From NCBI RefSeq assembly GCF_000801335.2, contig NZ_JSEH01000003.1, positions 124,001-188,000 on the forward strand: a stretch of DNA of 64,000 bases. The letters run 5' to 3'. The translations under genes were made by a program, and so were the position numbers. Positions 3,293-7,555 of the stretch are shown piece after piece; the stretch's first letter is position 1; each line of letters begins with the position of its first letter. The notes beneath the pieces were generated by a model. It worked only from the letters and a program-made list of their open reading frames with translations, had not been told where the DNA came from and made no database searches. The DNA is from Desulfovibrio sp. TomC. GTDB lineage: Bacteria; Desulfobacterota; Desulfovibrionia; Desulfovibrionales; Desulfovibrionaceae.

Positions 3293-5011
3293 TCAGGTCC
3301 GTGATTCGCTCGGAGACGTCAGAAAATCCCTGAGGTCGAGGCGCTGTTCCAGCCGGGCGCAGTCACACTCCACGGCGTCGATGTTGTCGTTGAGGAGCTG
3401 CACCAGACGCGCGTCGATGCGCCCGGCCCGGGCTTCCTGCCACAGGACGCCGAGGGCTTTCTCCCGGGGCAGGGCCGGCTTGTAATGACGGGCCATGGTG
3501 ATGGCGTCGTAAATATCGACAATGGCGATGATGCGGCTTTGCAGCAGGATATCCGCATCCTGAAGCCGGCCCGGATAGCCTGAACCGTCCAGCCGTTCAT
3601 GGTGCTGGGAAATGATGGGAAGCAGCCGCTGCATGTTTTCCGGAAAGGGAATGTGCTGCAGAATACGGTGGCTTTCAGCCGGATGGCGCTCTATTTCCAG
3701 CCGTTCCTCCGGGGTCAGGTTGCCTCGGGCAATGAGCAGGCAGGCGGTTTCTTCAGGCTCGAGCAGCGGCAAGACGGTCTTCCCGAAGCGGATCTCCAGG
3801 GCTGCGATGTGTGCGACCAGGGCGGCGTCCTCGGCTGTGACGGTACCTGCGGCGTTGATGCGGCACAGCGCTTCGAAATTGTCCGTCTGATCCTGACCGG
3901 TGGAAAGGCCGAGCAGGGCCAGGCGCTGGCCGATGATCTGCATGGCCCCGGCGGAAAGGCGGGTGGCTTTGGTCAGCACCTCCTCGCGAATGCCGATCTT
4001 GCCGACATCATGGAGCAGGCCGGCATAGAGCAGTTCTTCCAGGTCGCTCGGCGTGAACGTGACCTCTGGAAAATACGAAGCATCAAAATGAACGGTGCGG
4101 GCCAACGCGACGCCGAGCCGGGCCACCCGTTGGGAATGACCGGCGGTGAATGGATCGCGGGCGTCGATGGCCGTGGCCAAGGCCTGCATGAGGGAGTTAA
4201 TGAGCGTCTGGATGGCGTCGAAATGAAGGGCGTTGCCCATGGCGATGCCGGCCACGGTGGCCAGGGTGCCGATATATTGCAGGTGGCTGGCTTCAAAAAG
4301 CATGGGAGTCGGGCCGCCAAGCACCAACATGCCGATGCAGCGACTGGCTGAAACCAGGGGGGAAAGGAGCAGGGAAGACAGCGGCGCTTCCCCGGCCCAG
4401 CGGCTGTCGGCCGGCAGATCGTTGACGATCTCGCCTTTCTGGCTGGCGCAGATGTCGCGGAACAGGGCCGAATCAGCCACCCGGTCCAGGGTGCAGGCAA
4501 CGGCGTCGCCGTAGGCGCAGACCGGCGTAAAGGTCGATTCCCCGGGCACGTGCAAAAAAACCATGCCGACTTCGGCCGGCAGTTCGCCGCGCCGGCATTC
4601 ATCCAGCAACGCCTGGGCCACGTCCTTGGGGCGAAGCGAACCGTTAAGGCCCAGGGTGGCCCGGTGGAGCATGGAGATTTCACGGTACTTGGTCAGGGTT
4701 TCCCCGGCCAGGGTGCGGCGCAGGGCCTCGCCGTCGATGATGGATTCCAGGCAGTCGGCCACGAACCGGGCCATTTGCGGCAGGTCTGGCCGGATGTCGT
4801 CAGTGTCGTTGGCGTCGGCGGGCGGGGTCAGAACCAAATACCCGAGCAGGGTTCCTTCGAGGCGCAGGGGTTCCAGGCGGCAGCCAGGGGGAGGGGTTTG
4901 GGCCGAAGCCTCAAGGATCGCTGCCTGCCAGCCCGGTCCGAGCATGGCCTGGGCTCGGGCGAGCAGGGGGGCCAGCGCCCGTTTCTTAAGCAGTCGTCGC
5001 AGCGCAACCAT
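3293..5011 (-). CDS. GAF/HD-GYP domain protein, probable cyclic-di-GMP phosphodiesterase
   Basis: 572 residues. A poorly conserved N-terminal part (1-120) precedes a GAF-like sensor region (about 120-270), then an HD-GYP domain, a class that hydrolyses cyclic di-GMP at a di- or tri-iron centre. Metal-ligand motifs are visible: GHSQRVARL, LLHDVGKIGI, IERHP, and QHHERLDGSGYPGRL with the intact GYP. Between HDVGK and ERHP there are about 110 residues where the domain normally has about 30, so roughly 80 extra residues are inserted inside the catalytic fold. It lies 18 bases after a CheY-like gene on the same strand, suggesting a two-protein signalling unit. No membrane segment is evident, so it is likely cytoplasmic. 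Confidence 0.88.
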   Translation of the reverse strand: MVALRRLLKKRALAPLLARAQAMLGPGWQAAILEASAQTPPPGCRLEPLRLEGTLLGYLVLTPPADANDTDDIRPDLPQMARFVADCLESIIDGEALRRTLAGETLTKYREISMLHRATLGLNGSLRPKDVAQALLDECRRGELPAEVGMVFLHVPGESTFTPVCAYGDAVACTLDRVADSALFRDICASQKGEIVNDLPADSRWAGEAPLSSLLLSPLVSASRCIGMLVLGGPTPMLFEASHLQYIGTLATVAGIAMGNALHFDAIQTLINSLMQALATAIDARDPFTAGHSQRVARLGVALARTVHFDASYFPEVTFTPSDLEELLYAGLLHDVGKIGIREEVLTKATRLSAGAMQIIGQRLALLGLSTGQDQTDNFEALCRINAAGTVTAEDAALVAHIAALEIRFGKTVLPLLEPEETACLLIARGNLTPEERLEIERHPAESHRILQHIPFPENMQRLLPIISQHHERLDGSGYPGRLQDADILLQSRIIAIVDIYDAITMARHYKPALPREKALGVLWQEARAGRIDARLVQLLNDNIDAVECDCARLEQRLDLRDFLTSPSESRT

Positions 5012-5029
5012 GACAGCACTACTGGTCCA

Positions 5030-5416
5030 TCAAGGGTCAAGACGCAGCAGTTCTTTGGCCACCTTGAGCACTTCGTCCGGGTCGAAGGGCTTGGTCATGT
5101 AGCGGCTCGCCCCCAGTTCCAACCCCTGGCGACGGTCCACTTCCTGTCCTTTGGCGGTGAGCAGGACGATGCCGATGTCGGTTATGGCCGGATCGTCTTT
5201 GACCCGCTGACAGACTTCGTAGCCGTTGAGTTTGGGCATCATGATGTCCAGAAAAACGACATCGGGTTTCTGTGATTTTATAAGCGCCAGACCCTCTTCG
5301 CCATTTTGGGCAGAGAGGATGTCAATGCCAAAATCTTCTTCGAGTTCCTCAAGCGTTTGCTCAAGGAGCATTCGGATGTGCACCTCATCGTCGACGATGA
5401 GAATTTTGCCCGGCAT
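5030..5416 (-). CDS. CheY-like single-domain response regulator
   Basis: 128 residues, a receiver domain only. Acidic pocket (ILIVDDEVHIR), phosphoacceptor Asp in DVVFLDIMMP, Thr in VLLTAKG and Lys in YMTKPFDPDE are all in place. With no output domain it must act by protein contact, and the adjacent HD-GYP gene 18 bases downstream is the obvious candidate partner. Start ATG has AAGGAGA 6 bases upstream. The cognate kinase is not in this window. Confidence 0.93.
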   Translation of the reverse strand: MPGKILIVDDEVHIRMLLEQTLEELEEDFGIDILSAQNGEEGLALIKSQKPDVVFLDIMMPKLNGYEVCQRVKDDPAITDIGIVLLTAKGQEVDRRQGLELGASRYMTKPFDPDEVLKVAKELLRLDP

Positions 5417-5497
5417 GACCGTCTCCTTTGGGTAGCGCCAACCGATTTGAATACTAGTAAATGGTCAGGCCAATGGCAAGGTCGCACACGGATTCAG

Positions 5498-5530
5498 AAA
5501 AAAAACCCCCAAAAAAAGAGGAAATGGGGG
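5498..5530 (-). terminator. Terminator after the first IscA/HesB-like gene
   Basis: On the minus strand a CCCCC / GGGGG stem with a long A/T-rich loop is followed by eight T, 15 bases after the stop codon of the gene at 5546. The stem is short but the T-run is strong. Confidence 0.6.
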
Positions 5531-5545
5531 CGGCGTCGTGACTGT

Positions 5546-5881
5546 TCAGTGATGTGAGCCGCATCCTCCACCGCAATTTCCGCCAGCTTCGGAAAAATCG
5601 AGACTGGAATCGAAGGAAAAACCGGCAGGGCCACAATCAATGGTGACCGGGCCAGCCTGGCCAAGCAACTGGGTATTCATGCAGATCGTGATGCCGGCGA
5701 GGTCCACGGTGGTGTCGGCAGCAGTGGCAGCGTCCGGGGCAATATCCAGGCGCGGGCCGGATTCGTACTGGAACGAGAGGAAAACACGCAGGACAGGACG
5801 GCTGGCGGATCCCAAAAGAGCGTCTAGGGCAGCCCTGGCCGCGTCCGTCAGCCGGATAGGATGGTCTTGGTTGGTTGCCAT
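5546..5881 (-). CDS. IscA/HesB-like protein, paralogue without the central cysteine
   Basis: 111 residues with the small HesB/IscA beta fold pattern: helix (LTDAARAALDALLG), strand RVFLSFQYESGPRLDI, then ITICMNTQLLGQAGPVTIDCGPAGFSFDSS. At the position where its neighbours have CC or Sec-Ala (after the GG turn) this copy reads FQYESGP, so that ligand is missing. The tail GGNCGGGCGSHH keeps two cysteines and two histidines. Fe-S carrier function cannot be assumed without the first cysteine. First of three tandem paralogues, each apparently an independent transcription unit with its own terminator. Start ATG has only a weak A-rich ribosome site. Confidence 0.75.
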   Translation of the reverse strand: MATNQDHPIRLTDAARAALDALLGSASRPVLRVFLSFQYESGPRLDIAPDAATAADTTVDLAGITICMNTQLLGQAGPVTIDCGPAGFSFDSSLDFSEAGGNCGGGCGSHH

Positions 5882-5933
5882 GCCTTTTTTTTAAGTGCCC
5901 CATCCGGCCCTGTCAACCAACTGGGGGCGCAAC

Positions 5934-5960
5934 AAAAAAGGCCGACCCAGGGGTCGGCCT
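5934..5960 (-). terminator. Terminator after the second IscA/HesB-like gene
   Basis: Stem AGGCCGACCC / GGGTCGGCCT read on the minus strand, followed by a T6 run, 33 bases beyond the stop at 5994. Confidence 0.85.
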
Positions 5961-5993
5961 CATACGGAAGAGTCAACAGTTTGTTCGTGCGTA

Positions 5994-6353
5994 TCAGGAG
6001 CAGCCGCAGCCGCCTTCGGAACCGCCGCCGGAGCCACAACCGCCTCCGGAACCACAGCCGCCTCCGGAACCGCAGGAGCCGCCGCCAAGCTGGAGGCTGG
6101 AGCCCACGGCAAAGCCGTAATCGGTCATGTCCACAGAAATGGGGCTGGCCTCGGCCATCAATTCCTTATCCACGACAAACGTGTAGCCGTTTAAGTCAAA
6201 CACGTCGTCATTGTCGCGGGCTTCGTCCAACGCCAGGGTCAGGGACGGGCCACAGCACCCACCCTTGTTGAGATACACACGGATAGGGGTTTTCTGTTTG
6301 TCGGCAAAGTAATTGTCCAGTTCGGCCCGGGCCGAGTCGGTCAAAGAAACCAT
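5994..6353 (-). CDS. IscA/HesB-like protein with Cys-Cys motif and Gly/Cys-rich tail
   Basis: 119 residues. Helix LTDSARAELDNYFADK, strand IRVYLNKGGCCGPSLTLALD, then YTFVVDKELMAEASPISVDM and a low-complexity tail with repeated GSGGGCGSGGG units ending CGCS. The family relates to A-type Fe-S carriers, but the GG-CC-GP turn and glycine/cysteine tail mark a subgroup known as HesB-like (seleno)proteins. Cys33 aligns exactly with the in-frame UGA of the neighbour at 6552. Start ATG preceded by GGAGG at 6 bases. Function unproven; metal, sulfur or selenium handling is plausible. Confidence 0.85.
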   Translation of the reverse strand: MVSLTDSARAELDNYFADKQKTPIRVYLNKGGCCGPSLTLALDEARDNDDVFDLNGYTFVVDKELMAEASPISVDMTDYGFAVGSSLQLGGGSCGSGGGCGSGGGCGSGGGSEGGCGCS

Positions 6354-6494
6354 GGATACCTCCAGGCGAGAGATACCATTGGGTAATCACGCCCTATGGG
6401 ATTGTCAAATAAGCCTGCTCTATGTCCAAGGTCCGTTTGGGTCGGAAAAATCAATGACGCACCCGGCAGGAATAAGGGACGCCCTGCCGGACGT

Positions 6495-6523
6495 AAAAAA
6501 AGGCCGGCTTAAAAAGCCGGCCT
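6495..6523 (-). terminator. Terminator after the selenoprotein gene
   Basis: Perfect 10-bp stem AGGCCGGCTT / AAGCCGGCCT with a 3-base loop, followed on the minus strand by six or seven T. It lies 29 bases after the stop at 6552. Confidence 0.9.
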
Positions 6524-6551
6524 AAACAGCACATCGTATGCGCCCGGCGAA

Positions 6552-6872
6552 CTACACCGAGCAGGAACCGCTGGAGCAGGAAGAGCCGCAACCGCCGCCC
6601 CCGCCAAGCTCCATGCTCGAGGAGACCGAGAAGCCCATGTAGGTCATGTCGACCTTGAGCGGCGAGGCCTTCTCGTAGAGTTCCTTTTCTATGACAAACG
6701 TGTATCCGGAAACGTCGAGCACCTCGTCCGCCTCGCGCGACTCATCCAGAGCCAGCGCTAACTTGGGACCTGCTCAACCGCCTGAGGACAAATAAATCCG
6801 GATAGGGGACTTTTCCTTGTCGGCAAAATACCCATCAAGCTGGGATTTTGCGGATTCTGTCAACTCAACCAT
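6552..6872 (-). CDS. HesB-like selenoprotein (in-frame UGA read as selenocysteine at residue 33)
   Basis: 106 residues if the TGA at 6774-6776 is decoded as selenocysteine. The reading frame runs from ATG 6872 (GGAGG 7 bases upstream) as VELTESAKSQLDGYFADK, IRIYLSSGG-Sec-AGPKLALALD, YTFVIEKELYEKASPLKVDM, and ends in a Gly/Cys tail (GSSCSSGSCSV). It aligns without gaps around the UGA to the paralogue at 5994, with Sec in place of the first Cys of GGCCGP and Ala in place of the second. Conservation continues past the UGA, and the gene has its own ribosome site, terminator and a hairpin just after the UGA, all of which argue against a nonsense pseudogene. Standard gene callers would miss or split it. 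Biochemical role unknown. Confidence 0.85.
6746..6776 (-). promoter_or_regulatory. Bacterial SECIS-like hairpin after the UGA codon
   Basis: Immediately downstream of the UGA (6774-6776), the mRNA can fold as CCAAGTTA-GCGC-TGGCT(C)TGG (6766 down to 6746), an 8-bp stem with two G-U pairs and one bulge and a GCGC loop. The first loop G is 16 bases after the UGA. Bacterial SECIS elements are hairpins just 3' of the UGA with a G at the start of the apical loop, recognised by SelB. Fold predicted by eye only. Confidence 0.65.
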
Positions 6873-7018
6873 GGGAACCTCCGTGGGACAAGCTCGTTTG
6901 ATGCAACTAAGCATGACCGATCAGAAAGTCAAATACCATCGTCCCGGCCAGGGCTGGCGCGATTGCCAGAGTTTCCCTTTTTGCGCTAGATGGTTTGAAA
7001 GCCTGGGGGAAAAAGCCT

Positions 7019-7555
7019 GTGAGCAAACATAAGAAAATCATGACCGGGGGCGAGGTGCGCCGCACCCTGGAACGCCTGGCCTTTGAGATCATCGAGCGCC
7101 ACGACCCGAGCTGCGAACTGGCCCTGGTCGGCATCCAGCGGCGCGGGGCGGAACTGGCGACGCGCCTTAAAACTATCATTGATTCCCGGGGCAAATGCGA
7201 TGTGCCGCTGGGCAAGATTGACATCAATTTGTACCGCGACGACTGGACCACCCGCGATGTCCAACCGCAGGTCGGTCCGTCGGAACTGGCCTTTTCCCTT
7301 GATGGGAAGAGTGTTGTACTCGTTGACGACGTGCTCTTTTCCGGGCGCACCATCCGGGCCGCCCTGGAAGCGCTCTTGGACTACGGCCGACCCAAGCTCG
7401 TGGAACTGCTGGTGCTCATTGACCGGCGCGGCCACCGCGAACTGCCCATCCAGGCCGATTATGTGGGCAAGCGGGTCCATACCGAACCCGGCGAGCATGT
7501 GGACGTGGCCGTGGCCGAACTCGACGGCGAAGACAGCGTGTTGCTCGTGGACTAG
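7019..7555 (+). CDS. pyrR: PyrR-type uracil phosphoribosyltransferase / pyrimidine regulator
   Basis: 178 residues of the PyrR family: type I phosphoribosyltransferase fold, with the PRPP loop in SVVLVDDVLFSGRTIRAAL (about residues 97-115), the conserved GIQRRGAELA near residue 40, and INLYRDDW. PyrR proteins bind pyr-operon mRNA in Gram-positives and have weak UPRT activity; in Gram-negatives they usually act mainly as a UPRT. GTG at 7019 is chosen because GGGGGAA lies upstream; a TTG at 6995 is the only longer option. It stands alone, divergent from the selenoprotein, with no pyrimidine biosynthesis gene nearby. Confidence 0.9.
   Translation: MSKHKKIMTGGEVRRTLERLAFEIIERHDPSCELALVGIQRRGAELATRLKTIIDSRGKCDVPLGKIDINLYRDDWTTRDVQPQVGPSELAFSLDGKSVVLVDDVLFSGRTIRAALEALLDYGRPKLVELLVLIDRRGHRELPIQADYVGKRVHTEPGEHVDVAVAELDGEDSVLLVD

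Follow-up and report, generated by a model that had tools for sequence, protein, structure and literature searches.

The window analysed is a stretch of 64,000 nucleotides from Desulfovibrio sp. TomC. In its first part three related genes and a response regulator gene lie on the minus strand, and the following features were assigned, given in the direction of reading:

6873-6885, minus strand: ribosome-binding site with GGAGG at a distance of 5 nt from the ATG
6552-6872, minus strand: IscA/HesB-like gene with a Sec codon, 106 residues, starting with ATG and ending with TAG, frame translated with the TGA read
6774-6776, minus strand: in-frame UGA, codon 33, selenocysteine, placed by alignment at the cluster-binding N-terminal Cys in IscA-type proteins
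6739-6753, minus strand: core hairpin of a bacterial SECIS, GGCUC-UGGAU-GAGUC, starting 20 nt downstream of the UGA, assigned from conserved pairs and a recoding test
6501-6523, minus strand: intrinsic-terminator-like hairpin 3′ of the Sec gene, a consensus match only, 10-bp stem and T run
5994-6353, minus strand: Cys paralogue in tandem, with GGCCGP, 119 aa, tail rich in Cys and Gly, 120 bits to NF038090, adjoining the Sec gene in 14 of 14 genomes of the genus
5938-5961, minus strand: intrinsic-terminator-like hairpin 3′ of the Cys gene, a consensus match only
5546-5881, minus strand: third paralogue, diverged, 111 aa, with neither Cys nor Sec at the ligand position (FLSFQYESGPRL), Cys in the tail, 49.8 bits to NF038090 and thus below the cut-off
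5030-5416, minus strand: response regulator downstream of the triad, PF00072 at 102.5 bits, a conserved neighbourhood with no shown functional link

An earlier note on this DNA had singled out the Sec gene, claiming a single TGA opposite the first cysteine of the GG-CC-GP turn in the neighbour at 5994, an intact ribosome-binding site and a terminator. Translation and alignment bore out the first of these claims. The protein begins with MVELTESA, reads GGUAGP around codon 33 (U), followed by KLALALDES, contains no other TGA in its frame, and its U33 was aligned to the first Cys of GGCCGP in the Cys paralogue. The ribosome-binding site and the terminator were also found as claimed, but a scan of positions 5000-7100 yielded 6 terminator-like sites versus 3.1 expected from shuffles, and thus the terminator taken alone is weak evidence. 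The further claim that normal gene calling would discard the gene may hold for generic callers, as the frame 6872-6552 is absent from the plain list of open reading frames, but NCBI has a family model for such proteins. With the TGA read, the Sec protein matched this model, NF038090 (IscA_HesB_Se), with 122.7 bits (cut-off 85) over positions 1-101 of 101. It was also observed that the response regulator and then a protein with GAF and HD domains directly follow the triad (3293-5416, minus strand).

The triad was compared among the genomes of the genus, the named relatives of which belong to Solidesulfovibrio. The UGA copy and the Cys copy were both present in all 14 genomes searched. The third paralogue was present in all 14 as well; it was third in order in 13 of them and resided on another contig in G097. 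Its ligand site was never Cys in the 13 third copies that were read (e.g., FLSFLSESGPRL, FLSFMHASGPRL). The response regulator followed the triad in 12 of the 14 genomes and lay outside of the fetched stretch in G097 and G152. Six of the eight named matches of the Cys copy were from Solidesulfovibrio or 'Desulfovibrio sp. DV', with 84-95% identity (including S. aerotolerans, S. alcoholivorans, and S. magneticus), which places the window within or close to Solidesulfovibrio. For the 14 UGA copies a pN/pS of 0.123 before the UGA and of 0.190 after it was calculated, showing that the Sec gene is under purifying selection on both sides of the UGA, in accordance with the conservation that the earlier note had claimed, and no decay after the UGA was found in any of these orthologues. 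The pS was 0.530 upstream of the UGA, fell to 0.293 over the 15 codons that directly follow it, and was 0.489 beyond them; such a dip is expected if this stretch also carries an RNA signal.

The RNA signal was characterized with 57 distinct UGA genes and 73 distinct Cys genes from 127 loci that had been chosen as best matches, after a motif filter that removed duplicates, genes lacking [CU]xGP, and genes truncated by the end of a locus. The SECIS core of the Sec gene consists of a 5-bp stem with one G-U pair and has GG in the loop, in agreement with the claim of a hairpin with a G at its apex. All five pairs (positions 23-27 with 33-37 after the UGA) can form in 57 of 57 UGA genes versus 1 of 73 Cys genes; four of the five can form in 16 of the 73 Cys genes. 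The single Cys gene with all five pairs is the Cys copy of locus L021, which also contains a UGA gene. It may carry a fossil SECIS, perhaps after a recent change from Sec to Cys. The eighth codon downstream of the UGA is GCT in 56 of the 57 UGA genes, and GCT is found at this place in 9 of the 73 Cys genes. Beneath this core, the stem differs among the lineages; in one fixed register the pair adjoining the core holds in 86% of the cases, the next one in 42%, and further pairs in fewer. The SECIS claim is limited to the core hairpin, and the lower stem is not claimed.

The stability of the hairpin was compared with that of 300 synonymous recodings of each segment. For 47 distinct UGA segments the mean z was -2.96, and 85% had a p of 0.05 or less, versus a mean z of -0.16 and 6% for 65 distinct Cys segments. 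The hairpin of the Sec gene itself had a z of -2.9, and equal stability was reached by 0.7% of 3000 synonymous recodings. An Rfam scan of positions 5400-7400 (E up to 10) yielded no match that reached its gathering score; the best one was close to the terminator (6494-6575, anti-hemB, 33.5 versus 49.5 bits), and the matches were rejected as due to chance. These results also bear on the explanation that the UGA is an ordinary stop codon, a sequencing error or a recent nonsense mutation, and that the downstream part is decaying. The absence of the frame from the plain list of open reading frames is in line with this explanation. It is opposed by the presence of the same UGA in all 14 genomes of the genus and in 57 distinct genes of the family, by the pN/pS value after the UGA, and by a hairpin that goes beyond protein constraint, and its probability is practically nil. 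Readthrough and a decaying pseudogene were ruled out by the conservation of the UGA, the downstream frame, and the hairpin.

The machinery for selenocysteine incorporation was searched for in the source genome, which is 99.95% complete, and selA, selB, selD, and a tRNA-Sec(UCA) were all present. Profile searches revealed SelA (C29:39090-40193, 526.7 bits) and SelB (C29:35411-37315, 374.1 bits); for SelB, this one alone of 10 matches exceeded the cut-off. The selD gene (L010:1501-2439, minus strand, contig C2) has an in-frame TGA of its own near the start of the protein, TAAGUAAK. The tRNA-Sec gene scored 83.3 bits and was annotated by ARAGORN as tRNA-SeC with the anticodon TCA. As a control, 14 well-known genomes were searched; the numbers over the cut-off were 2 for SelA, 2 for SelB, 2 for SelD, and 5 for tRNA-Sec. 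In the source genome three further tRNA-Sec matches passed the gathering score (48-51 bits), and thus the tRNA-Sec score alone is not specific and the anticodon call matters. One of these three, at locus L016, turned out to be a tRNA-Trp. At Rfam gathering scores the loci L058 and L013 yielded only the tRNA-Sec, and the hairpin was caught by no Rfam family.

The complete machinery argues against a genome-wide reassignment of UGA to a sense codon other than Sec. Nothing beyond the open frame favors such a reassignment, and 20 of 53 UGA genes of the family end in TGA, as the frame end was read. The reassignment is thus refuted as far as sequence can do so, and the remaining chance is negligible. 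It is proposed that SelB and the Sec-tRNA(UCA) would decode the UGA at codon 33 as selenocysteine in strain TomC, directed by the hairpin 20 nt further downstream. From the computed frame, conservation, machinery, and hairpin, together with the fold and the Sec position described below, it is close to certain that the gene encodes a Sec-decoded selenoprotein of the IscA/HesB type.

The distribution of the UGA copy was analyzed in a sample of 199 genomes of the family. SelB was over the cut-off in 167 of the 199, with 6 candidates scored in most genomes, and 185 of the 199 had a match to NF038090; 8 of the other 14 have SelB. A UGA copy was counted at 80 bits or more, a line of our own, and the tallies were partly made by hand from match tables. 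On this basis 148 of the 159 selB-positive genomes with an NF038090 match had a UGA copy (90, including G058, plus 58 of 69), and the UGA copy thus mostly goes with the Sec machinery. Eleven selB-positive genomes had no UGA copy at 80 bits (G001, G026, G027, G042, G063, G092, G095, G111, G158, G162, G180), of which G027, G158, and G180 had a lower-scoring UGA match of 45-70 bits and G001 and G026 had weak ones. SelA was present in all 6 of these 11 genomes that were tested (partial in G095), indicating that the machinery is often kept without the Sec gene. Among the 26 selB-negative genomes with an NF038090 match, 12 have a UGA copy. SelA was detected in 7 of these 12 (partial in G188), and thus the SelB miss there is probably an assembly gap. 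Neither SelB nor SelA was detected in the other five, i.e., G167 (96% complete, 5% contamination), G194 (73%), G175 (81%), G022 (67%), and G125 (80%); gaps in the assemblies would explain this most easily, though G167 is nearly complete. In the 14 selB-negative genomes with an NF038090 match and without a UGA copy, SelA was found in none; one of them, G107, has a 24.5-bit match with a TGA, which was not counted. G001, G152, and G012 gave additional weak matches to the family, some of which contain a TGA in frame, and these are possible further HesB-type selenoproteins of another subfamily. A search of plasmids yielded 4 records from Priestia with 33-35% identity, and no relative was found in viral contigs.

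An exchange of Cys and Sec at codon 33 was found across the homologues. A quick maximum-likelihood tree was calculated from 123 cores with the Sec/Cys column masked, for which 90 columns are a small basis given the number of rows. In this tree 17 changes between the Sec and the Cys state were needed, at least 6 of which were forced by well supported branches. In the loci L126, L050, and L121 the neighbouring Sec and Cys copies were mutual closest relatives, with a support of 95-98. Taken together, these results suggest that the Sec/Cys pairs arose repeatedly or were evened out by gene conversion. The tree is compatible with the pairs having re-arisen in different branches of the family, through either a switch between Sec and Cys or gene conversion. 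In an earlier survey, two conversions of Sec to Cys were already tabulated for HesB-like proteins (PMC1794560).

The structure of the Sec protein was predicted with AlphaFold2 using 47 sequences, which yielded a mean pLDDT of 79.8 and a pTM of 0.64. A Foldseek search with the model gave an E value of 1.7e-6 to 1x0g_C. The nearest solved structure was IscA 1s98 (Z 11.8, 91 residues, rmsd 2.7), and further structural neighbours were IscA with a [2Fe-2S] cluster (1x0g, Z 11.3), SufA (2d2a, Z 10.5), and DsrR (2k4z, Z 10.3, rmsd 4.5). The latter has the IscA fold and is a possible analogy for the ligand-less third paralogue. The Sec protein is thus predicted to fold like the A-type carriers IscA and SufA. 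A phmmer search placed Sec33 opposite the Cys of GGCSG in AQ_1857 and HI1723, and its counterpart is presumably Cys35 of E. coli IscA, the N-terminal cluster-binding cysteine. In 47 aligned members C95 and C104 of the tail are invariant and C99 is conserved in at least 90%. The tail was modelled at low confidence, with a pLDDT under 50 for residues 91-106, and thus the supposed site formed by Sec33 and the tail is not seen in the model. According to the consulted part of PMC7144353, A-type proteins bind their cluster with one N-terminal and two C-terminal cysteines, and this, combined with the IscA fold and the alignment of Sec33, suggests that Sec33 could be a metal or cluster ligand.

It is therefore tempting to propose that Sec33 would substitute for the N-terminal cluster-binding cysteine, and that the selenolate of Sec33, together with C95, C99, and C104 in the flexible tail rich in Gly and Cys, would most likely bind Fe or a transient Fe-S cluster, which could then be delivered to apo-proteins. 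This whole reading, a Sec-decoded A-type-carrier-like selenoprotein including the role in Fe-S transport, is somewhat favored by us. It has to be weighed against a selenoprotein that is not a cluster carrier and in which Sec33 would be a redox residue or a residue handling sulfur or selenium on an IscA scaffold, for example in a selenenylsulfide with a tail cysteine, as a persulfide acceptor, or as a binder of a metal or metalloid. The tail motif of IscA is C-x-C, and the tail of the Sec protein is richer in Cys, with a very variable spacing. The Pfam model Fe-S_biosyn (PF01521) scored 24.6 bits, just under its cut-off of 26.3. Furthermore, a relationship to thiol oxidoreductases or a redox motif is found in many selenoproteins, as stated in the available sections of PMC13188914. 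Arguments to the contrary are the Sec at an IscA-type ligand position on an IscA fold, and the lack of a UxxC or CxxU pair at Sec33, as the third residue after the Sec is P in all 57 UGA genes. A non-carrier function is thus doubtful, though it deserves serious consideration. A mutant of the HesB-like gene of Methanococcus maripaludis was not impaired in nitrogen fixation (an unpublished observation quoted in PMC11097638, as far as the text of this source was available), and therefore no phenotype in that source supports a carrier role.

The Cys copy at its side could be a selenium-independent isoform of the Sec protein. This leads to the possibility that the UGA is mainly a selenium switch, i.e., that translation would stop at residue 32 without selenium and the Cys copy would take over. 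The invariable adjacency of the two copies in the genus fits to such a switch, as does a switching from Sec to Cys isoforms by selenium in M. maripaludis, which is described in the accessible part of PMC11097638. It is opposed by the terminator-like sites that follow the Sec gene and the Cys gene individually. A switch as the main role is unlikely, yet it would be compatible with a Sec-decoded carrier and is not opposed to it. It would be a bolder speculation that the selenolate of Sec33 natively ligates the Fe-S cluster of a cluster carrier, and that the triad comprises carriers with differing cluster stability, perhaps forming mixed oligomers, tuned by the selenium supply; this is judged to be rather improbable. 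In each of the 14 genomes, the Sec copy and the Cys copy at its side are a pair matched by nature, with which the contribution of selenium at an Fe-S ligand position could be studied.

The conserved triad of Sec, Cys, and no-ligand copies and the scattering of Sec/Cys pairs over the tree are mildly new, and the triad and the sharp contrast of the hairpin between UGA and Cys genes are useful additions. A literature search, in which the texts were covered in part, yielded no functional study of the IscA_HesB_Se subfamily, and no paper was found with the accession NF038090. With this family the Sec protein has the GG[U/C]xGP site and the Cys-rich tail in common, and no difference was found. The HesB-like selenoprotein model TIGR01911, which is the model given for HesB-like proteins in the available part of PMC13188914, shares the UxGP site and related sequence (35.3 bits), but the score is below its curated cut-off of 66.35, and thus the Sec protein belongs to a sister subfamily. 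The A-type Fe-S carriers IscA, SufA, and ErpA resemble it in the fold, in the residue of the N-terminal ligand site (Cys or Sec), and in the tail cysteines. Unlike them, the Sec protein has Sec for Cys and a longer Gly/Cys tail, and it scored far below the cut-offs of the equivalog models (21.1 versus 150.6 for IscA and 21.6 versus 117 for ErpA). The earlier note had called HesB-like selenoproteins known but poorly understood, which agrees with the accessible parts of two sources: they were tabulated for Desulfovibrio vulgaris and D. desulfuricans in 2006 (PMC1794560), and in M. maripaludis mutagenesis and 75Se labelling identified a HesB-like protein as a selenoprotein, its function being unclear (PMC11097638). 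The two Desulfovibrio proteins are of the same named family and from related bacteria, the likeness being one of family name. Given these entries, as far as the sources could be consulted, this kind of protein is known, and the gene at 6552-6872 is a new member of it.
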